Assembly: GCA_020627785.1 (NCBI GenBank)
Contig: JAHDGF010000007.1
Coordinates: forward strand, 1 to 64,000
Direction of reading: 5' to 3'
Source of the DNA: Saprospiraceae bacterium
GTDB taxonomy: Bacteria > Bacteroidota > Bacteroidia > Chitinophagales > Saprospiraceae
DNA length: 64,000 nucleotides
The first letter of the stretch is position 1; each line of letters begins with the position of its first letter. The position numbers and the translations under genes are program-made. Shown here in pieces: positions 1-17,137 of the stretch. The notes beneath the pieces were generated by a model. The model did no database searches, had not been told where the DNA came from, and saw only the letters and a program-made list of their open reading frames with translations.

Positions 1-22
1 AGGTGTCTTTTCTTTTGTTTCG

Positions 23-350: not shown

Positions 351-366
351 ATGTGTTAGAATTTAT

Positions 367-3234
367 TTAATTGAAAACGGCTTGACAATCTCCTATTGTT
401 ATTAAATGAGACCACAAATGAGGTAAGGCTTCACTACTAAATTGGCATTGATCCAGATACTGCAATTTTGCTTGTTGGAGCGCTTGATCTATGGGCTGGT
501 TTTGTTTTAAATTTTCGAAGAAATTCAGGATTATTATTTTCGTTGAAAGATCCGGTGCTGCCCATAGACTGGCGGTGATATTAGAGCATCCGGCATAATT
601 AAATGCTCTGGCTAAGGATCTTATACCTTCACCTTTCTTAATTAATCCATCTCCGGTATGGCATGCGCTGAGTATGGTTATATTTGCTTTTAACTTGGTC
701 GTATATAAATCACTCGCTTTTAGGATAAAATCATCCTCTGAATTTTGTCGTGTGAAAATTAATCCTGAATTCAGTGGTTTTTCTTTAACCACAAATCCAT
801 GCATGGCTAAATGCAAAAATTCAGCATTGGTGGCTTGGCTAAGAAATTTTTCTTTTGTTGCCTTTTCATTTAAAAAAAATTTACCATTCATGATTTTGGA
901 CGATTCCAAGATCTCATCTACCGAATATTTTAATTTGCCTATCCCTCTTGTGAAGTTGGTATCTACTTCTGTAGGTAAAAGATTTTTTACACCTTCTAAG
1001 GTAAAATCATCATACGCTAATCCGAAACCAAGGTATGAATTAGCAGATGAATCTAAGCGTTTAGATTTTGCTTCATCAAATAACAATTGATTGTTGTAGG
1101 CGTAACTTAGTGCATATTTCCTTAATAAATAAGGAAGAGGTATTGTCCAATCGTTGCTACTTGTCTGATCATACTTTTCGGTTAACATCACGTCAAATGA
1201 AACCTGCATAAGTTTGTCGTCAGGGATTATGAATAATCGCTCGATTGAATCATCCAATTCTTCAAGGACATCCTTTAAAAGTAAATCAAAAACTCTGTTA
1301 GAAATTAGGGAGAATTCTTTTATGGTTTTTTCTCGCGTATTTTTACTTATTCGAATGAATTCTTCAATACTCGCCTTGAAGTTGTCATCATGTGCGAGCG
1401 TAAAAACCTTTAATGATAATTGTTTACTATAAGAAAATATATAGATGCTGTCTTGTCCCGCAAAGTATTCTATGACTGCTGCTTTCTCTGGTAGTAATTG
1501 TTGTTGTAATTTATAATTCGGCTCCTCGCTAATAGTATATTTTAGTTGGTAATACTCTGGGTATTCAAGCTCCATTTTGTCAATGAGTCTTTCATATTTT
1601 CTAGACTTTTCAAACCGTTCTTTTTTGAATTTATGGAGGTTCGTCTTTTGATCTGCCTGCTGACTTAATTCGAAGATCTTGGAGTCTAAGTCGTATATTT
1701 CTTTTTTGAGAATTGTTTCATTTCTTAAAGTCTCCTTGTCAATGTTTGAAAATTTTGCTTCTTCATCTTGAAGACCATCAAGCATTACGATGGCTTTATT
1801 TTTAGAGGCAAAATTATACGCTTGCTGAAGGTATTTCTCTTCTTTCGTCAGTCGATATAACTCTAGAGCAATATTTGTTGCCTTCTCGTATTCAGGTAAG
1901 TTTTTTTCTATCAATTCATATCGGGATGCAGCGGCCTTATAGCCTTGTCTCATTTGAGTCCAAATAAGATCCAGACCTTGATAAGAGTTTAAGACAATCT
2001 TGAGATCCTCCAAATTATTAGAGACCAGATATTTTTCATAACACGCTTCGATTTTAAGCGTGATTATTCGCTCTAAGTCTTCTGCATGAATAATTACATG
2101 ATCCTTTAGATTGGGGAGACTATGAATTTCGTCATCTTCAAATCCAATGCTCAGTGATCGGATGGCTTTTTGATAAAACTCGATGGAGTTGTCAAAATTA
2201 TTATGCCCAAAGGCTACATCTCCTAAGCCTTCATAGGCAAGTCCATGATAGATTGTATTTTCCGTTTCATTTAATTCTTTTGCTATCGAAAGTGCTTCGG
2301 AATAATATTGTTTGGCATCCTCTAGCACACCATTGTCATAGGCATCATAGGCAAGGTTATTTAGAATCAAGCATTTTTCTTGCAATAAATACTTTGTGTT
2401 TGGATTAAAATCCGATAAAAATTCTTGGGTTACTTTCTTTATTTCGTTGTAGGTTTTTCCATTTTGTAAAACACTCAGAAGGTTAAGCTCTGCCGCAAAG
2501 CCAATTTCTCTATTAACCTTATTTAACCTATATAGCCGAATGGAGTTTTCATAACTCTCTATAGCAATTTTATATTTTCCGTTAGCTTCTTGCATTTGTC
2601 CATAGTAATCTAAAAACTCTGCCCTCTGGATGCTATTTGAATCAAGGAGCATATTGGCTTGATCAAAATATTCCACAGCCTTTATATTTTCACCAAGTTG
2701 GTGAAAGTAGTGCGCTGTCTTCGCGAAATAATCTCCTCTGGCATTGTCCTGGTTTGGGATATCAATTAACCAGTTGTTGGCTTTCTGAATATTTTTTAAG
2801 GCTTCTCTGTAGTAAGATGAATTACTGTGACATACGGCAGTTACATAATAGCTATTTGCAAGGGCAATTTTATGTTGAATTTTTTTAGGCTTTCCCCAAA
2901 GTGTTATGGCAGTATCGAGATGTGCTAAAGCTTTAGGAATTTCTTTTTTTCGATAATAACAGCTTCCTAATTTGTGGTGTAAAAGAGCGGTATTGTATCT
3001 GTTTAGATTTGAATTACCATAAAGGCTCAAGTTTTTTGTCAGAATATTTATCGCAGAATTATGATCCAACGAATCTATAGATAGAATATCTGTTTGTACA
3101 ATAACAGCATTCAAAAGTGAGTCTAAATCACCTTGATCTTGAATGGATTGAATTTCACTCGCTGAATTTTCAGTGCTTTCACAACTTACAAAATAAAGGC
3201 AGAGTAGAAATAAAATTAGTTTTTGGAATAACAT
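367..3234 (-). CDS. Lipoprotein TPR-CHAT (caspase-like) peptidase
   Basis: 955 residues. The N-terminus is a lipoprotein signal with lipobox FVSC (Cys18), so the protein should be exported and lipid-anchored. Residues ~50-400 are helical TPR-type repeats (paired Tyr/Ala/Leu patterns such as ALAHLDTAITLW and NSIEFYQKAI). A charged coiled-coil-like stretch follows at ~500-560. The C-terminal ~290 residues are a CHAT domain (clan CD, caspase/separase-like) with the expected dyad: His812 in AMHGF and Cys858 in SACHTGDG, followed by GEGIRSLARAF and a conserved Trp in ASLW. CHAT peptidases are cysteine proteases often controlled by fused TPRs. The gene lies 92 bp behind the T9SS subtilisin gene on the same strand, with a terminator hairpin between them. 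The substrate is unknown; the neighbouring sigma factor and membrane TPR protein are obvious candidates (inference). Confidence 0.9.
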   Translation of the reverse strand: MLFQKLILFLLCLYFVSCESTENSASEIQSIQDQGDLDSLLNAVIVQTDILSIDSLDHNSAINILTKNLSLYGNSNLNRYNTALLHHKLGSCYYRKKEIPKALAHLDTAITLWGKPKKIQHKIALANSYYVTAVCHSNSSYYREALKNIQKANNWLIDIPNQDNARGDYFAKTAHYFHQLGENIKAVEYFDQANMLLDSNSIQRAEFLDYYGQMQEANGKYKIAIESYENSIRLYRLNKVNREIGFAAELNLLSVLQNGKTYNEIKKVTQEFLSDFNPNTKYLLQEKCLILNNLAYDAYDNGVLEDAKQYYSEALSIAKELNETENTIYHGLAYEGLGDVAFGHNNFDNSIEFYQKAIRSLSIGFEDDEIHSLPNLKDHVIIHAEDLERIITLKIEACYEKYLVSNNLEDLKIVLNSYQGLDLIWTQMRQGYKAAASRYELIEKNLPEYEKATNIALELYRLTKEEKYLQQAYNFASKNKAIVMLDGLQDEEAKFSNIDKETLRNETILKKEIYDLDSKIFELSQQADQKTNLHKFKKERFEKSRKYERLIDKMELEYPEYYQLKYTISEEPNYKLQQQLLPEKAAVIEYFAGQDSIYIFSYSKQLSLKVFTLAHDDNFKASIEEFIRISKNTREKTIKEFSLISNRVFDLLLKDVLEELDDSIERLFIIPDDKLMQVSFDVMLTEKYDQTSSNDWTIPLPYLLRKYALSYAYNNQLLFDEAKSKRLDSSANSYLGFGLAYDDFTLEGVKNLLPTEVDTNFTRGIGKLKYSVDEILESSKIMNGKFFLNEKATKEKFLSQATNAEFLHLAMHGFVVKEKPLNSGLIFTRQNSEDDFILKASDLYTTKLKANITILSACHTGDGLIKKGEGIRSLARAFNYAGCSNITASLWAAPDLSTKIIILNFFENLKQNQPIDQALQQAKLQYLDQCQFSSEALPHLWSHLITIGDCQAVFN

Positions 3235-3248
3235 TATGATGTTATGAT

Positions 3249-3284
3249 TAAAAAATGGAGTTAGGGTATTACGCCTAACTCCAT
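3249..3284 (-). terminator. Intrinsic terminator after the subtilisin gene
   Basis: Perfect 11-bp arms, ATGGAGTTAGG at 3255-3265 and CCTAACTCCAT at 3274-3284, with an 8-nt loop. On the minus strand the stem is followed by a run of T. It sits 42 bp after the subtilisin stop and only about 15-20 bp before the CHAT start codon. Confidence 0.8.
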
Positions 3285-3326
3285 AATTTATGGAAATTCT
3301 TTTAAGTCAAAAAAATAAATTAGGAA

Positions 3327-4841
3327 TTACTTAAAGATTTTGAAAGTCTTGTTGAGTTCATCTCCTTGAATATTTATCAGATATATTCCTCTTGAACCTG
3401 TTGGGATATCTTTAAACTCGTAACTATGTTTTCCTTCAAATAATTGTACTTTCTGCTTGAAAAAAACTCTACCCATAGGATCAATTATCTGCATGACGCA
3501 ATTCTGATTTTTATTTGATTGGATGGAATATGTCCCTGATTCTTCTTCTGTTAAATTGAATGCTTCCTCTTGATCATTCGAGTGTCCTATGTAGTTGCCA
3601 GTGCCACAAGGATTGTTTAAAAGAATGGCCATTGAATTCTCATAATTTATAAATCCATCTGTCAGTACTTTGCCGATACTAGGGCTTGGTTCGGTACCTT
3701 CAAGTATTGCACACTTTACATCTTCCCAATCAAAGATCGCTTGATTCATGCCAAGATACGTGGCGAGCTGGGTAACATAGGCCGTTGCTTGAGATGTTCC
3801 ACTAAGCACAAGCGGTTTACCAAATCGATCTTTTCCTATAATGTCTTCCCCTGGTGCAAAAACATCGACTGATTCTTGTCCATAATTTGAAAAACTAGAA
3901 ATCATTTTATTGCAATCAGCGCTTGCTACAGAAATTATATTATCGTTGGGCAATGAGGACGGAAATGCTGCTAATCCGGCGACATTATTTTGGAAATCAT
4001 TGTCGTTACTGTCATTGCCAGCAGATGCCACAAATAGTATTCCTCCCATTGATTCAGCTTCATCTATGGCTAATCTGATAGCAGATTTTGGTTCTGCTCC
4101 ATGCGTTGCTTCTACGTTATAGCTAAAGGACATGTTTACAATGTTTATTCCTTCAGAGATGGCTTTATCAATAGCCTTTATGGCATCAAAAACACTTCCT
4201 ACACCATCGTCGCCTTGTGTTTTATAAGCTGATAAAGTAAGTGCTCCATTTCCATTTACGATGTTCTGTGAAATGATGCTACTCATGTGCGTTCCATGAT
4301 TATGATTATCAGTTGGGTGATTACTGTTATAAACGAAATCGAAACCAAAAGAAGATGGATCATAATAGCCATTCCATACTCTTTTTGACTTAGTAATGCC
4401 CGTGTCAAAAATGCTGGTGTATATCGGGGAATTTCCAGTCAACTCTGCATCAAAAATACCATTACATGAATTAACCATTTCTACTACTTCCTGTCTCGCT
4501 TTTTTAGAATCTGTGGATACCAAAAAATTCAATCCTACTCCTGTTACTGCACTGTTTTGATTTGCTTTTTTCTTAGATCCGTTGATGGTGTCTTGTGGGT
4601 TGCCGCTCGCATATGGTAAATTCGGATCGTTGTATGCTAGAAGGTAGCAATTGAGAACTGGAGTTGGCCCCTCAACCACAAACATCCCTTCTTCAATAAG
4701 AAAATCTGAAAGATCTTGGGAGCTCGCGGTGTCTGAAAACATGATGATCAATTCGTCATAGGCATAAGGAGACAAACTAATCTGTGAGAATAAATGAATG
4801 GAAAAGAATAGGGTAAAAAATAAAGAGCTTATGTTTCGCAT
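3327..4841 (-). CDS. Secreted S8 (subtilisin-like) serine peptidase with T9SS type A tail
   Basis: 504 residues with a Sec signal peptide ending near HLFSQ. The subtilase triad is in the usual order: Asp146 (IFDTG), His185 (HNHGTHM) and Ser350 (GTSQA). An oxyanion-type Asn lies in ASAGNDSND. The last ~75 residues are a T9SS type A sorting domain (MQIIDPMGRVFF, then GIYLINIQG and a basic KTFKIFK end), so the protein should cross the outer membrane and be surface-attached or released. The ~120 residues before the Asp probably form a propeptide or inhibitor-like domain. It is divergent from the sigma-factor gene and has a copy of the TGTCACAA-N17-CTTGT element ~65-95 bp upstream. The subtilase assignment is firm; the substrate is unknown. 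Confidence 0.93.
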   Translation of the reverse strand: MRNISSLFFTLFFSIHLFSQISLSPYAYDELIIMFSDTASSQDLSDFLIEEGMFVVEGPTPVLNCYLLAYNDPNLPYASGNPQDTINGSKKKANQNSAVTGVGLNFLVSTDSKKARQEVVEMVNSCNGIFDAELTGNSPIYTSIFDTGITKSKRVWNGYYDPSSFGFDFVYNSNHPTDNHNHGTHMSSIISQNIVNGNGALTLSAYKTQGDDGVGSVFDAIKAIDKAISEGINIVNMSFSYNVEATHGAEPKSAIRLAIDEAESMGGILFVASAGNDSNDNDFQNNVAGLAAFPSSLPNDNIISVASADCNKMISSFSNYGQESVDVFAPGEDIIGKDRFGKPLVLSGTSQATAYVTQLATYLGMNQAIFDWEDVKCAILEGTEPSPSIGKVLTDGFINYENSMAILLNNPCGTGNYIGHSNDQEEAFNLTEEESGTYSIQSNKNQNCVMQIIDPMGRVFFKQKVQLFEGKHSYEFKDIPTGSRGIYLINIQGDELNKTFKIFK

Positions 4842-4903
4842 TATGGAGGTATTAAGGGTTAAGTAAAATTCTCTGACCTATCGACAGAATTATTGCATCA
4901 TAT

Positions 4904-4937
4904 GGAGACAAGGAGTTTTCATTTTAAAATTGTGACA
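4904..4937 (-). promoter_or_regulatory. Candidate sigma-regulon promoter, subtilisin copy
   Basis: On the minus strand TGTCACAA (4937-4930), 17 bp, then CTTGTCTCC (4912-4904). The first block sits inside a 13-bp palindrome, AATTGTGACAATT (4928-4940). A start of transcription just below 4904 would leave a ~55-nt leader before the ATG at 4841. Same layout as the copies at 5100, 6991, 11720 and 14177. Confidence 0.5.
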
Positions 4938-5099
4938 ATTAATGACTAAAATTTCAATTACACCTATTAATCAGTGAATTCTCAGGACAACGAACCTTAA
5001 ATAGGACCTTGACTCTTCTTAGAAAGTTAGGAATATTGAAAATTAAAAGGAATAAACTCCTTGAAAATCTATTAAATATGCAAGTTTATGTAGGGCGTT

Positions 5100-5133
5100 A
5101 GTCACAATTTGAGGAAAGTGAGACCTTATACTT
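5100..5133 (+). promoter_or_regulatory. Candidate sigma-regulon promoter, sigma-factor copy
   Basis: AGTCACAA (5100-5107), 17 bp, then CTTATACTT (5125-5133), matching 7/8 and 4/5 of the two blocks at the other copies. It ends 23 bp before the ATG at 5157, which would give a short leader. The upstream TTG at 5109 lies inside the element, which argues against it as the start. If real, the sigma factor drives its own gene. Confidence 0.5.
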
Positions 5134-5156
5134 CTAACCAACGAATAAAAAACCTG

Positions 5157-6092
5157 ATGTCCATGAGAAATATTAATTTAGAAGCTCACCTAAAGGATAC
5201 TTGCATCGAAAAATTAAGTCCAACAAAAGAGGTACTCATCCATATTAAGGCATCTTTGATGGATAAGGACATTGGTCCTTTCAATCAGATCATTGGAAAA
5301 TCAGTCCAAAATCAATTTGAAAACTGGATAATAAAAGAATATCCTAGTTTGATTTCTCAGAAAGAAGATTTGAAAAAGGCAATACTTAGAAGATTTAAAA
5401 ATTTAATTTTAAAAACTGAGATTGAAAATAACCCCATTGATTTTGATAAGCAATTTCTACAAATTTCAAAATTAGAATGTGAATCAAATTTACCAACGGA
5501 AGCCAACAGGAATAAAAATTTTGGGTTGAGTAAAAGTGAATTTGTTTTAATGCTTAAAAAACTTCGGGAAGGGAATGAAGAAATTATAGAACGGATATTC
5601 TTATCTGAATTTCAAAAATGCACTTCTATTTTGATGAGTCAGACGGGTTGTAACAAACAAGAAGCATATGATTTAACCATGGATGCTTTGGTCGAAATAC
5701 GGAAGGAGTTTCTAGGAGACAAGATTCTATACGGAAATTTGGAGAGTTATTTTATAACTAAATCAATGAATCAATTTTTTCGTAAAAATAATAAGAAAAG
5801 AATTGAGATAGCTAAGTTTAGTACAGATCACTATTTTATAGAAGACCCAATAGTTGAAGACGAGGGATTCAATCTTGAGCTAAAAGAATTAGTGCATCAG
5901 GCCATTGAAAGCTTAAGTGAAGAATGTCGTGATATTTTAAAACTGTACTATTTCCAAGAATGGAGTTTTCAAGATATAGCGATCAAATTAGAAAAAGGCT
6001 ATGACGCTATTAGGAAGCAAGCAACTAGATGTCGAGATAAATTTAAATCAAATTTGAAGGCTAAGTCTTTTATAAGATTTAAATCAATATAA
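5157..6092 (+). CDS. Sigma-70 family (ECF-like) RNA polymerase sigma factor
   Basis: 311 residues from the ATG at 5157; an in-frame TTG at 5109 (+16 residues) and an ATG at 5163 are alternatives. Region 2 is at ~132-220 (MLKKLREGNEEIIERIFL, then NLESYFITKSMNQFFRKN). Region 4 is at ~245-305, with the helix-turn-helix in LSEECRDILKLYYF, EWSFQDIAIKLEKGYDA and KQATRCRDKF. The first ~130 residues have no sigma domain I recognise and make it much longer than a typical ~180-residue ECF factor. A membrane TPR gene follows after 39 bp, the usual place for an anti-sigma factor. The gene has its own copy of the shared upstream element, consistent with autoregulation. Confidence 0.88.
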   Translation: MSMRNINLEAHLKDTCIEKLSPTKEVLIHIKASLMDKDIGPFNQIIGKSVQNQFENWIIKEYPSLISQKEDLKKAILRRFKNLILKTEIENNPIDFDKQFLQISKLECESNLPTEANRNKNFGLSKSEFVLMLKKLREGNEEIIERIFLSEFQKCTSILMSQTGCNKQEAYDLTMDALVEIRKEFLGDKILYGNLESYFITKSMNQFFRKNNKKRIEIAKFSTDHYFIEDPIVEDEGFNLELKELVHQAIESLSEECRDILKLYYFQEWSFQDIAIKLEKGYDAIRKQATRCRDKFKSNLKAKSFIRFKSI

Positions 6093-6131
6093 GTCTACTT
6101 CAACGAAGAAGTACTTTCAAAAATGTGAACA

Positions 6132-6872
6132 ATGAATTCAATAAATAATTTAAATAACTATCTAAAAAACCAACATATTTCTGTGACTGATGATGCGATT
6201 ACTAAAGGTTTAATTAAGTCCCATTTTGAAGATCTTGAGCTTAAACAAAAGTGGGGATCTATGCTAGATGATGAGTTTAATTTAAAGTCATTGAAAACAG
6301 CACCCATTGTTCCTCAGAATAAAAATCGAAACTTATTCTTGGTGTTGATCTCTGTCATTCTGCTAGCTTTAATTATTTTCTTTTCGCTATCAGTTCAAGA
6401 CAAAAGTAAAAATGAGAGCAAGCTTCAAGCTTTGTTGAATGATCATTATTCAAATCCTGTACCTAGAGAATTATTGAAAGGGCCAACGGAGACCATGCAT
6501 GTTGCACAAAATGCCTACGGACTATACCAGTCTCAAAAATATGAAGAAGCCATTCCAATCTTTGAAGAACTTATTGTCATAGAACCACTTAATGAGGAAC
6601 ATCATTTTTATCTTGGGTTATCTTATTTATATAATGAACAACCAAGAAAGGCAGTTCAAGAATTTGATTGGATGTTAAATGCTGAAAAGAGTAATCGAAT
6701 GGATATGGCTATGTGGTTTAAGGCTTTGGCCCTCACGGAAGCCAAAGAGTACAAAGAAGCAAAAATTCATTTGCAAGACATTGCTACATGGAATACAAAC
6801 AAAGGTAAATCCATCCTTGCAGAAAAAGCTTCTCAATTATTAATCTTAATACAAGAGGAACAAAACAAATAA
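6132..6872 (+). CDS. Single-pass membrane TPR protein, candidate anti-sigma factor
   Basis: 246 residues. About 63 N-terminal cytoplasmic residues are rich in charge. One transmembrane segment follows at ~64-86 (NLFLVLISVILLALIIFF). The ~160-residue C-terminal part should be periplasmic and contains TPR-like repeats (AYGLYQSQKYEEAIPIFEEL, then HFYLGLSYLYNEQPRKAVQE). It is 39 bp behind the sigma-factor gene with no terminator between, so co-transcription is likely, and a strong terminator follows. The topology (cytoplasmic head, one membrane pass, periplasmic sensor) is that of an anti-sigma factor, but I see no zinc anti-sigma HxxxCxxC motif and no FecR domain, so the role rests on position and topology only. 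Confidence 0.75.
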   Translation: MNSINNLNNYLKNQHISVTDDAITKGLIKSHFEDLELKQKWGSMLDDEFNLKSLKTAPIVPQNKNRNLFLVLISVILLALIIFFSLSVQDKSKNESKLQALLNDHYSNPVPRELLKGPTETMHVAQNAYGLYQSQKYEEAIPIFEELIVIEPLNEEHHFYLGLSYLYNEQPRKAVQEFDWMLNAEKSNRMDMAMWFKALALTEAKEYKEAKIHLQDIATWNTNKGKSILAEKASQLLILIQEEQNK

Positions 6873-6890
6873 ATTCCCACATTTTATCAT

Positions 6891-6932
6891 AAAAAAAGGA
6901 GTCATTGGCGCATGTCAATGACTCCTTTTTTT
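6891..6932 (+). terminator. Strong intrinsic terminator of the sigma/TPR operon
   Basis: Perfect 17-bp arms (AAAAAAAGGAGTCATTG at 6891-6907 and its complement at 6916-6932) around an 8-nt loop, ending in seven T. The A and T tracts make it usable on both strands. Confidence 0.9.
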
Positions 6933-6990
6933 ATTCCCTCTTTTTTATAACATACGATCGTTAAGTTGGTTAAAATAAATTGATAAAAAA

Positions 6991-7024
6991 TGTCACAAAT
7001 TAAATGGTTGGTCGCCTTCTCTTA
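6991..7024 (+). promoter_or_regulatory. Candidate sigma-regulon promoter, lipase-fusion copy
   Basis: TGTCACAA (6991-6998), 17 bp, then CTTCTCTTA (7016-7024), about 70 bp before the ATG at 7094. The first block is identical to those of the subtilisin and the two duplicated genes; the second differs at one base (CTTCT for CTTGT). Confidence 0.45.
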
Positions 7025-7093
7025 ATAATGGACTTGACGTCATCCTGATCAATAGCAAGAGTTATTGAATTTTATTAATTCAAAAAATCAATT

Positions 7094-10000
7094 ATGCAAA
7101 CTTACTTTTTGAAATTTGTGTTCATAATATTTTTATTCTTTGCGGCTTATTCAGCAAAAGCACAATTGCCAATAGATGCACAGCTTTATGATAAAATAGA
7201 ATATACATTATCTGCACTTGATAAATCGGAAATTACAAGCCAAACATTTTTTGATCAATCCATGGGATTCCAGGATTGGAATAAATTAAATGGAACAATA
7301 AGTAGTTCAAGTAATACGCTGAAGGCGAGTAGTTATGAATGGCTCAGGATTCAATTAGAATCTAGCTTTATAAATGGTTACGATCCTCTACCTCCATCCT
7401 CAAGTTATATGGAATTCTATTCTCCAAATTACAATAATCCAACAGTGCCACTGTCGATCATTCATTGGGAATATCAAAAATTTATTGATGATCCAGTGGG
7501 CGATGGACTTATCACAATTGATTATCAAGAGGAAAAATTTTATGACGTTCCTGATAGAACTGAAAGTCCTTATGAAGACTGCACCTTAGTTGCCATTTGT
7601 CCAGTAACTAATAAATCGTTGGTAGGACTATCTCAAACCTTTATGCTTTATGAAGATCTTTTGCTAACCAATCAAAATCAAGCAGTAAGTATTAAAGTTG
7701 ATTTTGGAGACGGTCAAGGGTTTGTTCAAATATTTGAAGACATTGAAACGGTGGTTCAATATTCAAGCCCAGGCTCAAAAACTTTGACCTTGGAATATGA
7801 TATGGGAAACTCAGAAGTTTTTTATGCTCAATGTTCGATAACCATAGAAGCAACTCCTCCTGCGAACCTTCAGACAAATGTAACAAGACAGGGGACTGAT
7901 TGTGGTCCAGGATATACAGTAGATGCGAACGGCGCCGATGAAAATAGAACGGATATTTCTCCTGGCATTATCGTCAACATCGCTTATAATTGCTTTGACG
8001 CGAATGGTGATGGTAAAATGCTAAAACCATTTATTATCATTGAAGGGTTTGATCCACCTTCCCTTGGCAAGCCTAACACTTATCCAGCCATGTATTCAAG
8101 ATTGGACTTGTTGCGCGCTAATCCCCTTTTTAATGCTGCCAATGGAAATCCAGTAGTACTTCCTAATAATAGGTCATTGAGAGAAGAATTATATTGCCAA
8201 GGTTATGACATCGTTTATATCGATTTTGACGACTTTGGGGCTGGTGACCTCTTACAAAATGCCAATAGAGTTCAACAAGTAATCGAATGGGTTAACATGA
8301 GAAAAGAAGAAGACGGAAGTGAAGAGGAAAATGTGCTACTTGGTACTAGTATGGGCGGTGTAATAGGCTATAGAGTTTTACAGCAAATGGAGCAAGCAGG
8401 TATTCCAGCAGAAGCTAAATATCTTATAACTTTTGACTCTCCGCTTCGTGGAGCTAATATTCCAATTGGTTTACAACATCTTGCGTCAACTTTTGCAGAT
8501 ACTAGGGTTTCAAATAGCACGACCATAGGCGATAAAGCTCAATTGCTGCAAGCATCAAGAGCAGCTTTAGAAAGTCCTGCAGCAAAGCAATTGCTTGTAA
8601 GAAATGTTTTTCATTCGAAAAATCAGAATGGTCAAACAGAATCAGATGTTTTTTATGCCACTCTTCATAGTTTGCCACCGCCTAGCTCAGCGGAGTTAGT
8701 ATATATAAGCAGTGGCTCTGGAATTGGAGCACCTCAATTACTTGGACCCGGTGGGCAATTTCTAAAGTTTGATATGTTTTGCTCTAATAATTGGGGAACC
8801 TTTTCAATTGATTATGTTGAGGTTTATTTTGAATCTAGTACTGGCAACTTCCCGGTTTATAAACAAGCATTTACGAAACGACTGTTGGGACATTTCATCA
8901 TCGAATTCGAATCATTTGAATATGGTATAAATCCAGCAACAGAGTATTCTTCTGCCCCAGGAGGTAGCAGTGATTTTGGAACCAGTATGGCCTTTGGTTC
9001 TGGAGCGGTAACAGTGGATGATTGCGATGCATTGAACGTCATAAATTTTCCAACCAATGGAAATTTTTGCTTCGTGCCGACCTATAGTGGTCTGAATGTT
9101 CCTGGCGTGACCAATCCAATGACCTTTGTTGCAGGTGCTTGTCCCTCACCAGCAATAGGTTGTTCTTTTTCAACAGATAATTCCGTCTGGTCTCATATTT
9201 CTGGAATTCAAGAACATAATCAATTCCATGTTTCATTAAATACTAGAACAACAAATTTTTTAATAGGTTATGTAAAGACCGGAAGCGATGGATGCGAGAT
9301 CAATCCAATAGAAGATGACATTTACAACTACGGTGAATCGGATGAACAGCCTATTATTAATCCAACGGCATTTGGCTATTATAAGACAGACAATGTTATC
9401 GATTTTGATTTAGAGATAAAACCTACTGGGAAACTTTGGGTTAACAGAAATGGAAGAGTAGATTTTGTATCAAATACCAATAATCAACAAAATCAAACCT
9501 CGGAACACTTTGAATTGTTTATCCAGAGCAATGATTGTGATGGATCAGAAACACTTGTTTCGGTTGAAAGTCAAGCCGATTTCCATATAGGACATTGGGA
9601 TGATCTTATCAATGTCACTAACAATGCAGATGTTTATGTGAAAGAGAATGCCACCATCGAAATCGAAAAAGATGGAGAGCTATACATCGAAAAATTTTCA
9701 AATTTAATCATTGATGGGGGAACGGTCATTGTAAGAAATGGAGGGTTATTAAAAGCTGGATGGCATGGAAAAATATTTGTAAGAAATGGTGGAGAACTTA
9801 TCATTGAGGATAATGGACGATTACGACTCACGGATAATGCTCAATTAATTGTTGAAGAACATGGGAAATTCACCTTTCTAAATAAGGCCAAATTTCAATT
9901 ATGGAATTCTCAAGTTGATGCCGATAATCCCATTAGATGTAATATTTGGATCAAAGAGAGAGGAAGCTTCAATTATGGTGGCCTTCCAAGGATTACTGGA

Positions 10001-11656
10001 TTAGGATACATACAATTTGATAAGTGGTCAGAAATAACAGCAGAACACAATGTCTCTGAAATTAAATTCGTTGGCCAAGGGAAAGAACATTTATTATTTC
10101 AGTTGAACGAAGGAGCTTCTTTAGTTTTGCCAGATGTTGATTTCAAATTACAAGGTGTTAGAGTTGAATATGAACAAGCGGCCGCAATAACTTTGGATGG
10201 AGATAGAAAACTGACACTTTTTACTTCCTATCTTTTGGGAAGAACAGATGTTGCAAACTTTGGGTTTATAGGACCTAAAAATAATAGTGTACATATTATT
10301 GATACAGATTTTGAAAACCTTGCAACAGGTCTATTAACCTATGAAATCGAAAGAGGAACCAGCTATCAAATTTCTGGTTCAAATTTCTTGAATAACAGGA
10401 CTGGTGTCTGGTCGATTGATGATGAAGCCTGCACCTTTACGGCTTGCCAATTTATTGGTGGCAAAAGAGGATTACTTTTAGAAGGAACGGGTGTCGCAAG
10501 ATTTAATGCCAATTGTATCATTTCAGGTTATCATGGTGATATTGATGAAGTATACAATGCAGAAGGAGGAATCGTAGCATTACTAAGTAATGAGAGAGCG
10601 ACTAGCATTAATCTTGATAATAGTGATGTAATGGGTAATGGCATCGGAATATTTTCGCCTCAAGGTCACAAATGCAGCGTAGGACTTTTTAATGATTCCA
10701 AAGTAGATGAAAATTTTTATGGAATCAGTATGCCAGGAACAATCGATGGGCCTGACTCTTCCGGGAAAGTATCTGCGGTAGTGACTGTTGATTGTTCAAG
10801 TATTTCTAAAAACAAAATTGCTGGCGTTCATGGATCAGGGATTCACTTAATCATCGATGCCTCTCAGCCTCACATTGGATCAAACACTTTTGAAAGGTCA
10901 GATGTTGGTAACGGTAAATTATTTGATTTATGGAACACTGATGTTTCATATTGTATGACTGGAATCGCGGCGCATAATAATTATTGGGGGCCGAATGATT
11001 ATTGCCCGGTTTCTCCGACAGATTATATTATCAAAGGATCTAATTTGTGTAATATATCATTGATCACTGAGTGCCCAGAAGAAATTTCTTGTGAGTATGG
11101 AGGAACACTGCCACCGTGTAACGATCCAGTAGATGGGGAAGGACGTTCTTGCCCTTGCGACTTGCCTCCTACTTTTCCTGCTTTCGCAAATATGAATGAA
11201 CAATGGAACGCAGGTGTAGCTGCTTATAGAAATGGAAATATGGATAAAATGGAACAATTATTTAGTCCTTTAGCTTCTGTTAGTAATGCTGATCGAGAAA
11301 TTGGTAATGGATTCTGTATAGCCTTGGTTGATCATGCAAGAGCCTTGGCTCCATTTACGATAGCACCGGATACAAATAATTCAATTAGCGAATCATCCAA
11401 ATCAACATCTAGATCAATTGACATGGATTCTAACTTTAAGCTATTTCCAAATCCATTTACAGAAAAATTAAACTTGATTATGGCGGGTGAAAATTTAGTA
11501 AAAATTTATGCCTTAGATGGAAAAATCATTTATCAAAATACTTCTGATAGCTCGCTTAGCATCGATACAAAGAACTGGCCTTCAGGCACCTACCTTGTGA
11601 AAATTTTAAACCATCAAACACAAGAAATCATTGACCATAAAATTATCAAAATTTAA
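7094..11656 (+). CDS. Secreted lipase-like alpha/beta-hydrolase fused to a beta-helix region, T9SS type A tail
   Basis: 1520 residues with a signal peptide cleaved near YSAKAQ. Residues ~310-480 look like an alpha/beta-hydrolase: KPFIIIEGFDPPS, a YDIVYIDFDDFGAGD strand, the nucleophile elbow GTSMGG with Ser419, and TFDSPLRGAN after it. Residues ~750-1330 are a long run of short hydrophobic/Asn/Gly repeats (for example VIVRNGGLL, IFVRNGGELIIEDNGRL) typical of right-handed beta-helices. An ELFSPLAS-type helical patch and a T9SS type A tail (FKLFPNPFTEKLNL to the end) close the protein. Carboxyl-ester hydrolase activity is an inference from the motif, and I could not place the catalytic Asp and His. 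The family of the N-terminal ~300 residues is not recognised. Confidence 0.82.
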   Translation: MQTYFLKFVFIIFLFFAAYSAKAQLPIDAQLYDKIEYTLSALDKSEITSQTFFDQSMGFQDWNKLNGTISSSSNTLKASSYEWLRIQLESSFINGYDPLPPSSSYMEFYSPNYNNPTVPLSIIHWEYQKFIDDPVGDGLITIDYQEEKFYDVPDRTESPYEDCTLVAICPVTNKSLVGLSQTFMLYEDLLLTNQNQAVSIKVDFGDGQGFVQIFEDIETVVQYSSPGSKTLTLEYDMGNSEVFYAQCSITIEATPPANLQTNVTRQGTDCGPGYTVDANGADENRTDISPGIIVNIAYNCFDANGDGKMLKPFIIIEGFDPPSLGKPNTYPAMYSRLDLLRANPLFNAANGNPVVLPNNRSLREELYCQGYDIVYIDFDDFGAGDLLQNANRVQQVIEWVNMRKEEDGSEEENVLLGTSMGGVIGYRVLQQMEQAGIPAEAKYLITFDSPLRGANIPIGLQHLASTFADTRVSNSTTIGDKAQLLQASRAALESPAAKQLLVRNVFHSKNQNGQTESDVFYATLHSLPPPSSAELVYISSGSGIGAPQLLGPGGQFLKFDMFCSNNWGTFSIDYVEVYFESSTGNFPVYKQAFTKRLLGHFIIEFESFEYGINPATEYSSAPGGSSDFGTSMAFGSGAVTVDDCDALNVINFPTNGNFCFVPTYSGLNVPGVTNPMTFVAGACPSPAIGCSFSTDNSVWSHISGIQEHNQFHVSLNTRTTNFLIGYVKTGSDGCEINPIEDDIYNYGESDEQPIINPTAFGYYKTDNVIDFDLEIKPTGKLWVNRNGRVDFVSNTNNQQNQTSEHFELFIQSNDCDGSETLVSVESQADFHIGHWDDLINVTNNADVYVKENATIEIEKDGELYIEKFSNLIIDGGTVIVRNGGLLKAGWHGKIFVRNGGELIIEDNGRLRLTDNAQLIVEEHGKFTFLNKAKFQLWNSQVDADNPIRCNIWIKERGSFNYGGLPRITGLGYIQFDKWSEITAEHNVSEIKFVGQGKEHLLFQLNEGASLVLPDVDFKLQGVRVEYEQAAAITLDGDRKLTLFTSYLLGRTDVANFGFIGPKNNSVHIIDTDFENLATGLLTYEIERGTSYQISGSNFLNNRTGVWSIDDEACTFTACQFIGGKRGLLLEGTGVARFNANCIISGYHGDIDEVYNAEGGIVALLSNERATSINLDNSDVMGNGIGIFSPQGHKCSVGLFNDSKVDENFYGISMPGTIDGPDSSGKVSAVVTVDCSSISKNKIAGVHGSGIHLIIDASQPHIGSNTFERSDVGNGKLFDLWNTDVSYCMTGIAAHNNYWGPNDYCPVSPTDYIIKGSNLCNISLITECPEEISCEYGGTLPPCNDPVDGEGRSCPCDLPPTFPAFANMNEQWNAGVAAYRNGNMDKMEQLFSPLASVSNADREIGNGFCIALVDHARALAPFTIAPDTNNSISESSKSTSRSIDMDSNFKLFPNPFTEKLNLIMAGENLVKIYALDGKIIYQNTSDSSLSIDTKNWPSGTYLVKILNHQTQEIIDHKIIKI

Positions 11657-11677
11657 TCATCACTAATTTATTTTTTG

Positions 11678-11713
11678 CCGCCATCCATTACTATGGGTGG
11701 CGGAATTTTTTTT
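11678..11713 (+). terminator. Terminator after the lipase-fusion gene
   Basis: CCGCCATCC (11678-11686) pairs with GGGTGGCGG (11695-11703), with one G-U pair, and is followed by AA and eight T. A diverged copy lies at 14135-14168 because the segment was duplicated. Confidence 0.85.
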
Positions 11714-11719
11714 CAAGAA

Positions 11720-11753
11720 TGTCACAATTATTAAAAAATTATTTCTTGTACTA
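11720..11753 (+). promoter_or_regulatory. Candidate sigma-regulon promoter, duplicated gene 1
   Basis: TGTCACAA (11720-11727), 17 bp, then CTTGTACTA (11745-11753). It ends 11 bp before the ATG, so the leader would be very short. The interval between the two blocks has diverged from the copy at 14177, while both blocks are unchanged. Confidence 0.5.
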
Positions 11754-11764
11754 GAAAATAAATA

Positions 11765-13897
11765 ATGATGAAAAATAATTTTACAATAATCTTAGCCATC
11801 TTTTTTGGCTTTTCAATAATGCTTACTCCTAAGCTTAGTTTAGCACAAGATGAAACTGGTTTTTTATGGTGTAAAGAAAATACATCGGCGGACATAGTGA
11901 TAGGTAAGGGCACAGCTTTCACACATTCATCACAGGTTCAATTTTTTAATGTCACTAATGTGCAAATAATAGGTAATTTTATAATTGACAACAATTTCAT
12001 TTTTGAAAATAAAAATGTGAGCATCAATAACGATGTTAGCATCATTGTCCAAAATGAAGGAAATCTAACATTGAGAAATTCCAACCTTTTTGCTTGTGAC
12101 CTATTGTGGAATGGAATTTTCTTAAGAGGCCAAACCAGTATTCAATCTTTTGATTCTAAAATTGAAGATGCAAAAACCGCGATTTTTTCCAAGAGTTCGA
12201 CGACCTTAAATCTCAATAATACAACCTTCAATAAAAATGTGATTGGGATTCAACTTGAGAAAGATTTTCTAGGAAGTCCTCAAATAAATACTTTTATCAA
12301 AAACAGTTTTACTTGTACGAGTCCCATCAATGGAACCTCTGATCAATTTACAGAGGCAGGAATACTGCTAAGAAAAGTCAACATAAACCTAAATCTAAAT
12401 ACCATTAGCCCTATTAATAATTCTATTTTTCAAGGGATTCAGAATGGAATTGTTGTTGAAGGCATTAATTCAAAACTTGTAGCCAATGGTCTCGAATTCC
12501 TAGATATTGAAGTCAATGGAATTGACATGTCAGGCAAAGAATTAAAGATAGAAAATTCGAAATTTGAAAATTGTGGAAGTAATGGTTTGTTGATGGAAAA
12601 TGTATATAAGCTAGATGTCCAGCAATCGGAGTTTGTTATCAATGAAGCAGTAAAAGGTATGAGACCAAGATCAGGAATCAGAACAAATGGATTTTTAGAC
12701 AATGCGATCTTGATTATTAAAGACAATACTCAAAATTATAATTTGATTGAGACAAGTTCTTCATCCAAGATTTACGGTATGCGGCTTATCGGAAATAGTA
12801 ATACCTCTAATGCCAATATTCTTTTTGAAGGAAACACTTCCAACCTTTATGATAAAAATTCTTCTGCTTGCATATTTTTGGATGGAGTTTTCCCAGCAAC
12901 CAGTAGTGTTGACATAAGGGTAAACAATTTCTATTGTTCCTCTTCCAGTTTCTTCTCGCCATCTGAGAATTACGCCATGGGAATTTATAGCTCAGGTGAT
13001 CGAGAAAATATGAACCTCCAAGCCAACTTCTTCGACAATTATAATGGAATCGATGACAAACTTCTCGGCATTTATCTTGAAAATTCGGGGGGAACAAACA
13101 ATTTAATTTCAGAAAATGATGCATTTGGATTCAATGGAGTATTTATGAAATTACAAGGATTTAGAAATTCCATCATTTGTTCAAATACACCTTTGTCAAG
13201 TATTTTTGGAGCGGTTTATCCTAGTACTGGTTTTGAATTTTCAGGGGATAATTCAGGAACACAATTTACAAGAAATATTATGTACGGTATGGGCTTTGCT
13301 GTTAAGCTAAATTCCGATGCAATCATTGGCCCCCAGATACATCAAGGGAATTTGTGGACTTCGTTTGGATTATTTGATGCTTCTCCACGTGGAATCCTAT
13401 GTGACAATTGCGATGTTGAAGAGAATAGGTTTGAAGTTCATACGGATCAATCCACCGCTGGGGTATATGAATATACTTATTACAGTCCTTACTTCCCACT
13501 TCGCACTTTCCCAGATGATATCATGATCAAAACAGATGGCGCACCTCCTACTTCTGGCTGTATCCAATTGTTTGCAAATCAAGAACCACCGGTTGAAGAA
13601 TTAATAGGTTCTTCAAATGATGAAAACCATAAGGCGATAAACCCGATCAATACCTTAATTCCCTCCGATCAAGTATTTAAAGTCTATCCCAATCCAACAG
13701 ATCATCAATTTACAATTGATGTGTTAGGTGAAGGAGTAAGTCAAATTTTTATCACAGATATTTCAGGGAAAGAATTGATCTCTCAAAAAGTGATAAATGT
13801 CAATTCATTTAATTTTGAATTAGAGCCTGGACTCTATTACGTTAGAGTAAGAATGAAGAGTGGGGAAATGGTCACCAAAAAACTCCAAGTCTTTTGA
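11765..13897 (+). CDS. Secreted beta-helix-like surface protein, T9SS type A tail (paralogue 1)
   Basis: 710 residues; the start is ATG ATG, and either Met works. Signal peptide to about KLSLAQ. The body is built of repeated short beta motifs (NVQIIGNFIIDNN, NVSINNDVSIIVQ, GIQNGIVVEGINS), the pattern of a right-handed parallel beta-helix, with several Cys in the C-terminal half. No catalytic motif is recognised. A T9SS type A domain starts at FKVYPNPTDHQF and ends in a basic MVTKKLQVF. It is the left member of a tandem pair with the gene at 14221; the first ~280 and last ~110 residues are nearly identical and the ~300-520 region is more diverged. An adhesin or polysaccharide-binding role is possible but unproven. 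Confidence 0.85.
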   Translation: MMKNNFTIILAIFFGFSIMLTPKLSLAQDETGFLWCKENTSADIVIGKGTAFTHSSQVQFFNVTNVQIIGNFIIDNNFIFENKNVSINNDVSIIVQNEGNLTLRNSNLFACDLLWNGIFLRGQTSIQSFDSKIEDAKTAIFSKSSTTLNLNNTTFNKNVIGIQLEKDFLGSPQINTFIKNSFTCTSPINGTSDQFTEAGILLRKVNINLNLNTISPINNSIFQGIQNGIVVEGINSKLVANGLEFLDIEVNGIDMSGKELKIENSKFENCGSNGLLMENVYKLDVQQSEFVINEAVKGMRPRSGIRTNGFLDNAILIIKDNTQNYNLIETSSSSKIYGMRLIGNSNTSNANILFEGNTSNLYDKNSSACIFLDGVFPATSSVDIRVNNFYCSSSSFFSPSENYAMGIYSSGDRENMNLQANFFDNYNGIDDKLLGIYLENSGGTNNLISENDAFGFNGVFMKLQGFRNSIICSNTPLSSIFGAVYPSTGFEFSGDNSGTQFTRNIMYGMGFAVKLNSDAIIGPQIHQGNLWTSFGLFDASPRGILCDNCDVEENRFEVHTDQSTAGVYEYTYYSPYFPLRTFPDDIMIKTDGAPPTSGCIQLFANQEPPVEELIGSSNDENHKAINPINTLIPSDQVFKVYPNPTDHQFTIDVLGEGVSQIFITDISGKELISQKVINVNSFNFELEPGLYYVRVRMKSGEMVTKKLQVF

Positions 13898-14134
13898 TTG
13901 ATTGGAACTTAAGACCTTATTATATTTTGGTAGGTATTTTCACTGAATGAGATTTCTTAATAAAAAATTTCAAAAGATAAATGATGACAATTCTCGTAGA
14001 TATAAATAAAGGGCAGGCTAGATGTTAATTCATTCATTGTGATTTTCTTGGTGTCTTGTTTCATATTGAGTTTAGAATTTTAGAAACGTCGCAAACTGCA
14101 TATCAAAATTTAATCATCACTGATTTATTTTTTA

Positions 14135-14168
14135 CCGCCAACCAGTACTTTGGATGGCGGTTTTTTTT
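14135..14168 (+). terminator. Duplicated terminator between the paralogues
   Basis: CCGCCAACCA (14135-14144) pairs with TGGATGGCGG (14151-14160) with one mismatch, followed by eight T. It is the copy of the terminator at 11678 and now separates the two paralogues. The rest of 13898-14220 holds ~65 bp of conserved downstream sequence and a spacer with no feature I can name. Confidence 0.75.
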
Positions 14169-14176
14169 CTCAAGAA

Positions 14177-14209
14177 TGTCACAAATTTTAAAAATTAATT
14201 CTTGTACTA
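14177..14209 (+). promoter_or_regulatory. Candidate sigma-regulon promoter, duplicated gene 2
   Basis: TGTCACAA (14177-14184), 16 bp, then CTTGTACTA (14201-14209). Same as unit 1 except that the spacer is one base shorter and has several substitutions. Confidence 0.5.
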
Positions 14210-14220
14210 TAAAATAAATA

Positions 14221-16359
14221 ATGATGAAAAATAATTTTACAACAATCTTAGCCATCTTTTTAGGCTTTTCAATGATGCTTGCTCCCAAGCTTAGTTTAGC
14301 GCAAGACGAAACAGGTTTTTTATGGTGTGCAGAAAACGCAACTGCAGATATAGTGATAGGCAAAGGCACTGGCCTCACGCATTCATCGCAGGTACAATTT
14401 TTCAATGTCACCAATGTGCAAATAATTGGTAATTTTATAATTGACAACAATTTCATTTTTGAAAATAAAAATGTGAGCATCAATAACGATGTTAGCATCA
14501 TTGTCCAAAATGAAGGAAATCTAACATTGAGAAATTCCAACCTTTTTGCTTGTGACCTATTGTGGAATGGAATTTTCTTAAGAGGCCAAACCAGTATCCA
14601 ATCTTTTGATTCCAAAATTGAAGATGCTAAAACTGCGATTTTTTCCAAGAGTTCAACGACCTTAAATCTTAGTAATACAACCTTCAATAAAAATGTGATT
14701 GGGATTCAACTTGAGAGAGATCTTTTTGGAAGCCCTCAAATAGATGTATTTATAAAAAATAGTTTTACTTGCACAGGCCCCATCAATGGAACCTATGATC
14801 AATTTACAGAAGCAGGAATACTGCTAAGAAAAGCCAACATCAACCTTAATCTAAATACCACTAGTCCTTTTGATAATTCTATATTTCAAGGGATTCAAAA
14901 TGGAATTGTTGTTGAAGGCATTAATTCAAAACTTGTTGCCAATGGAATCGAATTCGAAGATATTGAAGTCAATGGAATTGATATGTCAGGCAAAGAATTA
15001 ACGATAGTAAATTCGAAATTTGAAAATTGTGGGAGAAATGGATTGTTGATGGAAAATGTATTTAATCTAGATGTACAGCAATCTGAGTTTGTTATCAATA
15101 AAGCAGTAAAAGGTATGAGACCAAGATCAGGAATCAGAACAAATGGATTTTTAGATAATGCGACTATATTCATCAAGAATAATTACCAAAATTATAATTT
15201 AAATGAGTCAGCTTCTCAATGCCAGATTTATGGAATGAGGTTTACAGGAGATGGAAGTAGCACTAATGCGAGTATGCTTATTAGCGACAACATTTCCCTA
15301 CTTAAAGATAAAAATTCTTCTGCGTGTATTTTCTTAGAAGGAGAGTTCCCAATGAATAGCTCGATAGATTTGAGAGTAAATCAATTTAAATGTTCTTCTT
15401 ATATATTACACGAAACCCCATCAGTTAATTCTGCGATGGGAATATTTAGCTCAGGAGAAAGAGAAAATATGAATCTTCAAGCCAACGATTTTCAAGAATA
15501 TAATTCAACTGGTGAAAATCTTTTAGGAATTTTGCTTCAAGATTCGGAAGGTAGCAATAATTTTATTTCGGAGAATGAAACCTTAGGATTTAATGGTATT
15601 TTCATACAGCTGAATAATTTTAAAAATTCAGTCATTTGTTCAAATAAAGCAATCCAACCTATACTTAGTCGCAGAGGGATTGGGTTTGATTTTCTTGGAG
15701 ATAACTTAGGTACACAATTCACTCAAAATTCCATGCGTTGGGTAAAGATTGGAGTGAGACTAAGTGAGAATGCTATCATTGGTCCACAAATCCACCAAGG
15801 CAATACTTGGATTGCTAATTCTGTTTTTGATTTGTATACTGCCATTTTTTGTGATAATTGTGATGTAGACCAAAATAGGTTTGAAGTTCATACCGATCAA
15901 ACAGAAATTGCACCAGGACCATATAGCACAACCTTCAGTTATTATAGTCCGTATTATCCATTAGTTGTTATCCCACAGGATATCATGATCAAAACAGATG
16001 GCGCACCTCCTACTTCTGGCTGCATTCAATTGTTCGCAAATCAAGAACCACCGGTGGAAGAATTAACAGGTTCTTCAAATGATGAAAACCAAAAGGCGAT
16101 AAACCCGATCAATACCTTAATTCCCTCAGATCAAGTATTTAAAGTCTATCCCAATCCCACAGATCATCAATTCACAATTGATTTCTTAGGTGAAGGAGCA
16201 AGTCAAATTTTTATCACAGATATTTCAGGCAAAGAATTGATCTCTCAAAAAGTGATAAATGTCAATTCATTCAATTTTGAATTAGAGTCTGGACTTTATT
16301 GCGTTAGAGTAAGAATGAAGAGTGGGGAAATGGTCACTAAAAAACTTCAAGTCTTTTAA
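14221..16359 (+). CDS. Secreted beta-helix-like surface protein, T9SS type A tail (paralogue 2)
   Basis: 712 residues; tandem paralogue of the gene at 11765 with the same plan: signal peptide (KLSLAQ), beta-helix-like repeats, Cys-containing C-terminal half and T9SS type A tail from FKVYPNPTDHQF. The region around residues 300-520 differs most (for example GDGSSTNASMLISDNISL here). If the paralogues bind something, this variable part is the likely place of divergence (inference). It has its own copy of the upstream element and its own terminator before it. Long open frames on the opposite strand of both paralogues are shadows of the low-complexity coding sequence. Confidence 0.85.
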   Translation: MMKNNFTTILAIFLGFSMMLAPKLSLAQDETGFLWCAENATADIVIGKGTGLTHSSQVQFFNVTNVQIIGNFIIDNNFIFENKNVSINNDVSIIVQNEGNLTLRNSNLFACDLLWNGIFLRGQTSIQSFDSKIEDAKTAIFSKSSTTLNLSNTTFNKNVIGIQLERDLFGSPQIDVFIKNSFTCTGPINGTYDQFTEAGILLRKANINLNLNTTSPFDNSIFQGIQNGIVVEGINSKLVANGIEFEDIEVNGIDMSGKELTIVNSKFENCGRNGLLMENVFNLDVQQSEFVINKAVKGMRPRSGIRTNGFLDNATIFIKNNYQNYNLNESASQCQIYGMRFTGDGSSTNASMLISDNISLLKDKNSSACIFLEGEFPMNSSIDLRVNQFKCSSYILHETPSVNSAMGIFSSGERENMNLQANDFQEYNSTGENLLGILLQDSEGSNNFISENETLGFNGIFIQLNNFKNSVICSNKAIQPILSRRGIGFDFLGDNLGTQFTQNSMRWVKIGVRLSENAIIGPQIHQGNTWIANSVFDLYTAIFCDNCDVDQNRFEVHTDQTEIAPGPYSTTFSYYSPYYPLVVIPQDIMIKTDGAPPTSGCIQLFANQEPPVEELTGSSNDENQKAINPINTLIPSDQVFKVYPNPTDHQFTIDFLGEGASQIFITDISGKELISQKVINVNSFNFELESGLYCVRVRMKSGEMVTKKLQVF

Positions 16360-16408
16360 TTGATTGGAACTTAAGACCTTATTATATTTTGGTGGGAATT
16401 TTCAATGA

Positions 16409-16621
16409 ATGAGATATCTTGATCAGGATGGCTTTAATTTTTGCGAAGAATGCGATGATCAAAATCCAAGTATTAATCCTGCAGCCATGGAAATTTCTTG
16501 GAACAACATTGATGAAGATTGCGACGGTGTCCTTGCACGCAACCATGAATTACAAGAAGGAGCGTACCGGATTTCATTGTTAAAATTGAATAATGTTTCC
16601 TCTAAAAAATTATTGGTTTAG
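16409..16621 (+). pseudogene. Remnant of a MopE-motif T9SS protein
   Basis: The frame reads DQDGFNFCEECDD then INPAAMEISWNNIDEDCDGV, the DxDGDGF...CDD...INPGA.E...NIDEDCDG pattern of MopE-type putative metal-binding repeats. It then passes directly into GAYRISLLKLNNVSSKKLLV and a stop, which looks like the last ~20 residues of a type A sorting tail. Signal peptide, catalytic or binding body and most of the sorting domain are missing. The nominal ATG belongs to the duplicated downstream sequence of the paralogue, so this is a deletion remnant abutting the duplication end. An intact MopE-type motif occurs in the M36 protease at 27930. Confidence 0.7.
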
Positions 16622-16670
16622 TCATTCTTGCTTATCCTGTCTGTCTCGCTTGTAGAGACAATTCCCGAAG

Positions 16671-16723
16671 AATCCTGAAATCCTGTTCAAAAACTCTTTT
16701 GGAACAAGATTTCAGGATTTTTT
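16671..16723 (+). terminator. Long hairpin terminator
   Basis: A 22-23-bp nearly perfect stem (AATCCTGAAATC arm at 16671, matching GATTTCAGGATT up to 16719) with a small loop and a T run. It closes transcription from the paralogue/remnant region. The rest of 16724-17137 contains the minus-strand terminator at 16917 and a short CTCCTTA/TAAGGAG hairpin near 16820, but no gene I can support. Confidence 0.8.
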
Positions 16724-16916
16724 AAGTGAAGACAAGATTGTATCTCTCATTAAAAGACATACTCCAGTCCTATCTCAACCATCACGCGGCGAAATATTTG
16801 GATAATACTCCTTAATAACACGAGTATAAGGAGATTTTACTCAAGAAGGCCTTTGGAAGAGTGATAGAGCAGTTCACCCCTGATAATCTTATTAATCTTC
16901 TGAGACTTAGGGGCAT

Positions 16917-16947
16917 AAAAAAAGAGAATCCGTGTTGCCGAATTCTC
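16917..16947 (-). terminator. Terminator of the M28 peptidase gene
   Basis: On the minus strand GAGAATTCGG folds onto CGGATTCTC (9 pairs, one G-U) and is followed by seven T. It lies ~190 bp beyond the M28 stop. Confidence 0.65.
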
Positions 16948-17137
16948 CTCTTGTAAATTATTGATTTCATTTATTTTTTTACTACAAATACGACTAGCTG
17001 TAGAAGTAAAAATAAATTCATTAGCTAAGGTAAGAAGTCTCTGTTAATACGCAAGAAAATTGACCAAATAAAATCCAGAAACAAGTCGGTTTTTTAGTCC
17101 ATTTCCCATGAATATTGAACTTTTCAATGTCAGAAAC

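Follow-up and report, generated by a model that had tools for sequence, protein, structure and literature searches.

Five copies of a two-block element lie within 9.3 kb (4.9-14.2 kb) of the window, the 64,000 nucleotide stretch analysed here (positions 1 to 64,000 of contig JAHDGF010000007.1, from the 4.69 Mb, 81 contig assembly of a Saprospiraceae bacterium), and probably act as promoters for an extracytoplasmic function (ECF) sigma factor that is encoded among them. The elements would consist of a -35 box (TGTCACA) and a -10 box (CTTnT) with an 18-bp spacer, once 17 bp, read by the ECF sigma factor at positions 5157-6092. This sigma factor would transcribe its own operon, which contains the sigma gene and the gene of a TPR protein that has a single predicted membrane helix, as well as a divergent operon for a subtilase and a CHAT protease, and three genes for type IX-secreted surface proteins. 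Together these would make up an envelope response under positive autoregulation. As an anti-sigma, the TPR membrane protein most likely keeps the sigma factor tethered to the membrane; a signal in the envelope, acting by way of the TPR-CHAT protease and/or the subtilase, would lead to cleavage of the TPR protein and free the sigma factor. A paralogous sigma factor in the same genome would recognise this -35 box as well, at a spacer length of 16 bp, and the spacer, possibly together with details of the -10 box, would insulate the two regulons. The full model, i.e. an autoregulated envelope-signalling ECF system with five promoters, an anti-sigma, proteolytic release and spacer insulation, is given a probability of about 0.75.

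The pattern GTCACAA-N16/17-CTTnT is found five times in the window, always in the 9.3 kb segment; in dinucleotide shuffles of the window (n = 400) it appeared 0.1 times on average and at most once. Each element lies between genes, with its end 15-74 bp ahead of a start codon. The distance between GTCACA and CTT is 18 bp in four elements and 17 bp in the fifth; counted from GTCACAA it is 17 bp in the four and 16 bp in the fifth. Coordinates, strands and spacings are all as given in an earlier note, which was made from the letters of this DNA. The note also held that in the duplicated pair the spacer has mutated while both blocks are intact, and alignment of the copies bears this out: the promoter and gene of the beta-helix protein form a tandem duplication in which the spacer has changed and is shorter by 1 bp and both blocks are unchanged. 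As two elements derive from this duplication, the five are not independent. The copy of GTCACAA that the note placed at 36985 does lack the second block, but the total was undercounted, as the window holds nine copies of GTCACAA and not six, four of them in coding sequence with no second block. The note had proposed a genome-wide motif scan. With the loose pattern GTCACAAN{15,18}CTT it was uninformative (29 matches vs 23 in the control), so that the non-random part is the clustering and positioning of the elements; the related N16 motif described below is strongly enriched. No RNA family was found by Rfam in positions 1-18000 of the window.

The motif accompanies the sigma family in other genomes. 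When 150 genomes of the bacterial family were searched with the window sigma protein, close homologues were found in three other genera, along with many more distant ones. Their loci repeatedly carry TGTCACA, a spacer and CTTATA or ATTATA/ATTGTA. Named records with homologues are Saprospiraceae metagenome-assembled genomes (MAGs), Chitinophagales MAGs and Kordia. Upstream of the sigma homologues of G137, G106 and L141, GTCACA-N18-(A/C)TTRTA occupies the same position. At the sequence level a putative autoregulated two-box promoter is present at 5100-5133, and sigma homologues have one as well; the earlier note had named absence of the motif from orthologous loci as evidence against its reading, and the motif is present at homologous loci in other genera. 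In the 149 other genomes of the family the pattern TGTCACAN{14,20}CTTATA was counted against its reversed form as control. Genomes in which the sigma family is present gave 68 vs 30 in the control, and those in which it is absent gave 65 vs 89 (p = 3e-5 for the contrast). The share of sites with a 16-bp spacer is 44/68 where the family is present and 17/65 where it is absent (p = 1e-5).

The host genome (G000) encodes a second sigma factor of the same family, found on contig C6 (G000:C6), which is 195 amino acids long and has its own box. GTCACA-N16-CTTNTA is present in 16 copies in this genome, all with CTTATA, vs 0 in the control. Most of these N16 sites are upstream of genes, many of whose products display signal-peptide-like starts. 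None of the window elements has a 16-bp spacer, and the other N17/18 matches in the host genome are mostly within coding sequence. One candidate for a sixth 18-bp member of the regulon, GTCACAA-N17-CTTATA at G000:C17:5983 (L091:5983-7020), was rejected and left uncounted. The site is intergenic and upstream of two short frames, with the metalloprotease-like HEIAHNLG in a different frame, and the downstream gene looks broken.

The spacer difference recurs outside the host genome. The window sigma belongs to a group of extended sigma factors with about 110 additional N-terminal residues, and these are monophyletic with a support of 99/100. An 18-bp spacer is found at 5/5 extended-sigma loci with a readable promoter and a 16-bp spacer at 12/12 other sigma loci with the motif, two of which also show 15 or 17 bp (Fisher p = 1.6e-4, uncorrected for relatedness). 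In four other extended-sigma genomes taken whole, a spacer of 18 forms the peak (18/89, p = 2e-5) and gives p = 0.004 when the previously known sites are removed. Four genomes with short sigmas only show a peak at 16 (27/119, p = 2e-8) and none at 18 (p = 0.27). Among the N18 sites fetched from the four extended-sigma genomes and G137, 10/15 are outside predicted frames of at least 80 amino acids and several are upstream of secreted-protein genes. ECF factors require a rigid spacer (PMC6411747), which makes a spacer-based insulation of regulons plausible.

The window sigma is of the ECF type by the TIGR02937 model (49.5 bits, cut-off 42.9), and it has PDB matches to AlgU, SigL and sigmaE. Region 4 is detected by Pfam, and the AlphaFold2 (AF2) model displays sigma2 and sigma4 helices and no sigma3. 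Typical ECF factors consist of sigma2 and sigma4; the window sigma is atypical in carrying an extra N-terminal sigma2-like domain. With the whole protein modelled by AF2, at a predicted local distance difference test score (pLDDT) of 87, the extension forms helices at 22-33, 38-59, 61-84 and 94-108, and core sigma2 forms helices at 124-135, 140-161, 165-184 and 193-217. Alignment of the extension with core sigma2 by hhalign gives E-values of 3e-4 to 5e-4, with a low probability of 31-40%. Modelled alone (pLDDT 93), the extension has sigma2 domains as its best PDB matches (4lup, TM-score 0.67), with weak Foldseek E-values of about 1. In a second structural comparison the 19 highest rows are all sigma factors, aligned through their region 2, with Z from 9.3 to 6.0, and the next unrelated row has Z = 5.5; a Z below about 13 may reflect an arrangement common in helical bundles. 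Because the top structural matches are sigma2 domains, the order and lengths of the helices are alike and there is a gap in Z to unrelated folds, the extension likely folds as a second sigma region 2.

The sigma gene is part of a recurring cassette. A CHAT gene is found at 10 kb or less from 26/29 sigma genes in 16 genomes, where about one is expected. The order in which sigma and a TPR protein with a transmembrane (TM) segment lie beside a secreted protease and a CHAT protein is seen repeatedly across Saprospiraceae and also in Kordia. The His and Cys residues of CHAT are retained by 31/31 homologues. The CHAT proteins either begin like lipoproteins or, as in many paralogues, carry a hydrophobic helix at the C-terminus, which suggests a location in the envelope. 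At almost all loci the gene after sigma encodes a TPR protein with one hydrophobic segment after about 60-80 residues; many of these proteins share an N-terminal segment, approximately KY..G.LS..E......LI, ahead of the helix.

Two further observations concern the range of the cassette. The host genome has TPR-CHAT genes at less than 6 kb from more distantly related ECF sigma genes in two other places, L186 (G000:C45:24000-40000) and L187 (G000:C47:18000-34000), so the pairing of CHAT and ECF genes extends beyond the family of the window sigma; inspection by eye of these C45 and C47 loci revealed no GTCACA box paired with a fitting -10. In Kordia (Flavobacteriaceae; L149, L150) the same sigma/TPR/CHAT cassette is found with GTCACA-N16-TTTATA upstream of sigma, and the Kordia sigmas nest within the Saprospiraceae tree, which suggests transfer.

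Several points weigh against the autoregulated model and have to be set beside the observed elements, their conservation, the link of motif to sigma family, the correlation of spacer with clade, and the cassette. The -10 block is variable in the window (CTTGTC, CTTATA, CTTCTC, and CTTGTA twice), and many short-sigma loci have no matching box within 500 bp. The extended clade is known from six loci and counts as one evolutionary event, so the link between spacer and domain may be coincidental. An extended sigma at E <= 1e-25 was found in 0/5 other genomes of the genus that were searched (G017, G124, G198, G246, G280); the cassette is therefore patchy, and these closest genomes offer no orthologous promoters for comparison. 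None of the known anti-sigma models searched matched the TPR protein. Recognition of the elements by the sigma factor, well supported by comparison across loci, and also anti-sigma action, proteolysis and membrane topology are steps that we infer. The sigma-regulon reading of the earlier note is probably right. It gains from the boxes at homologous loci and from a motif that tracks the sigma family, and in it recognition by the window sigma itself keeps its conditional standing. It was also incomplete, lacking the cassette of TPR membrane protein, subtilase and TPR-CHAT protease as well as the short paralogue with its N16 regulon and the 18-bp spacer that distinguishes the two.

The short paralogue might itself be the main reader of the window promoters, with tolerance for spacers of 17-18 bp, in which case the local sigma would have its targets elsewhere. 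The -35 box is the same and the -10 similar, the recognition helices of the two sigmas resemble each other, and the paralogue with its N16 regulon resides in the same genome. However, 0/5 window elements have the 16 bp seen at 16 other genome sites, and 18 bp recurs in other genera at all extended-sigma loci with a readable promoter, which makes this assignment unlikely. That GTCACAA is an operator for a transcription factor, e.g. of the CRP/FNR type, and not a -35 box appears very unlikely. TCACA does resemble half of the known CRP site TGTGA-N6-TCACA, but the window copies are single half-sites with no palindrome and with a second block at a fixed distance; in addition the spacer peak is sharp at 16 or 18 according to sigma clade and the motif tracks the sigma family. 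Least credible is an origin of the five elements by chance or copying, with one site spread by local duplication. Two of the five do come from the tandem duplication, but flanks and spacers of the remaining three are unrelated, the shuffles give at most one site, and the recurrence of the motif at homologous loci of other genera already contradicts such an origin.

The locus has counterparts among known systems. It resembles E. coli sigmaE/RseA/DegS in having an ECF sigma with an autoregulated promoter, an adjacent protein with one predicted TM helix, and proteases encoded nearby. It differs in that the putative anti-sigma is a TPR protein that matches none of the anti-sigma models searched, that a CHAT protease and a type IX subtilase are found alongside, and that the sigma carries an extra sigma2-like domain. 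ECF54 has a genetic context of subtilase, CHAT and carboxypeptidase; the example is actinobacterial and regulation without an anti-sigma was proposed (PMC8999054). CHAT and subtilase are likewise present at the window locus, a comparison made by gene context, but at almost all of the present loci sigma is followed by a TPR membrane protein. In the type III-E system of clustered regularly interspaced short palindromic repeats (CRISPR), the TPR-CHAT protease of Craspase cleaves an inhibitor of an ECF sigma (CASP-sigma/Csx30/Csx29; PMC10028731), a published precedent that favours the autoregulated model. The likeness consists of a TPR-CHAT protein, an ECF sigma and a third protein as proposed inhibitor, with autoregulated sigma sites in the locus. 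Unlike Craspase, the CHAT protein here has a lipoprotein-like start, or in paralogues a C-terminal TM helix, and is probably in the envelope. No Cas family was found among eight neighbouring proteins over the 18 kb scanned, a scan in which CRISPR arrays were not specifically sought. SigP of the P. gingivalis PorXY-SigP system controls genes of the secretion machine by way of a two-component system (PMC4800418); the likeness is an ECF sigma tied to the type IX system in Bacteroidota, and the difference is that the targets here are secreted cargo and the cassette itself. Of Bacteroidetes ECFs, only 6% adjoin class I anti-sigma domains (PMC7406223), which leaves room for other regulators.

CHAT-linked ECFs are already known from ECF54 and Craspase. 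The unusual features are the split in spacer length between paralogues, the tandem sigma2-like domain and a TPR-CHAT/sigma cassette outside CRISPR; no paper describing the family of the window sigma was found in the open-access library that was searched. A broader proposal is tentative and on balance doubtful: that a sigma with tandem sigma2-like domains selects spacers exceeding those of its paralogue in the same cell by 2 bp, and that CHAT frees it from a TPR membrane anti-sigma. Such a switch would be akin in kind to that of Craspase but without CRISPR, and it would be widespread among Saprospiraceae and present in Kordia too. If the model holds, one cell contains a natural pair of sigmas that share a -35 box and are separated by spacer length, in correlation with an added sigma2-like domain, and the way in which ECF factors gauge spacer length could be put to the test. 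TPR-CHAT caspase-like proteases would then adjoin ECF sigmas across a bacterial family outside CRISPR, and a counterpart of the Craspase sigma switch may exist in envelope signalling.

The features of the locus are collected in Table 1. The subtilase and TPR-CHAT genes are divergent from sigma, and the TPR protein gene is directly 3' of sigma.

Table 1. Promoter elements, GTCACAA copies and genes of the sigma locus (positions in the window)
Feature	Position	Strand	Basis or remark
Element of subtilase, GTCACA-N18-CTTGTC	4904..4937	-	Read directly; intergenic; 67 bp before ATG
Element of sigma gene, GTCACA-N18-CTTATA	5100..5133	+	Read directly; 28 bp before ATG
Element of lipase/beta-helix gene, GTCACA-N18-CTTCTC	6991..7024	+	Read directly; 74 bp before ATG
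Element of beta-helix paralogue 1, GTCACA-N18-CTTGTA	11720..11753	+	Read directly; 16 bp before ATG
Element of beta-helix paralogue 2, GTCACA-N17-CTTGTA	14177..14209	+	Read directly; duplicated copy, spacer diverged
GTCACAA copies without second block, inside coding sequence	36985; 10665 (+); 12100 (-); 14556 (-)		
TPR-CHAT caspase-like protease, lipoprotein-like N-terminus, His812 and Cys858	367..3234	-	PF12770 5.8e-47
Secreted subtilase (S8), type IX sorting tail	3327..4841	-	Peptidase_S8 1.7e-28; Por_Secre_tail 25.4 bits (cut-off 23)
ECF-type sigma factor, 309-311 amino acids (first ATG 5157, second 5163)	5157..6092	+	Sigma70_r4_2; TIGR02937
Sigma N-terminal extension, probable degenerate sigma2-like domain	5223..5486	+	hhalign, AF2, structural matches
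Putative anti-sigma: N-terminal part of about 65 amino acids, one predicted TM helix, TPR	6132..6872	+	Pfam TPR_2
Lipase-like (GTSMGG)/beta-helix-like protein, type IX-secreted	7094..11656	+	Por_Secre_tail 3.2e-10; other domains read from sequence
Beta-helix-like protein 1, type IX-secreted	11765..13897	+	Por_Secre_tail 2.4e-7
Beta-helix-like protein 2 (tandem duplicate), type IX-secreted	14221..16359	+	Por_Secre_tail 3.9e-8

A separate repeat element of about 46 nt (core GGACAAGCAAAGAAAATGAAAA) is found at the start of the window, at positions 27-361, in four copies spaced 95-98 bp apart. The core has 19 copies in the genome on several contigs, several of them at less than 300 bp from a contig end, and is also found near the second CHAT cassette of the genome (C6:9309).

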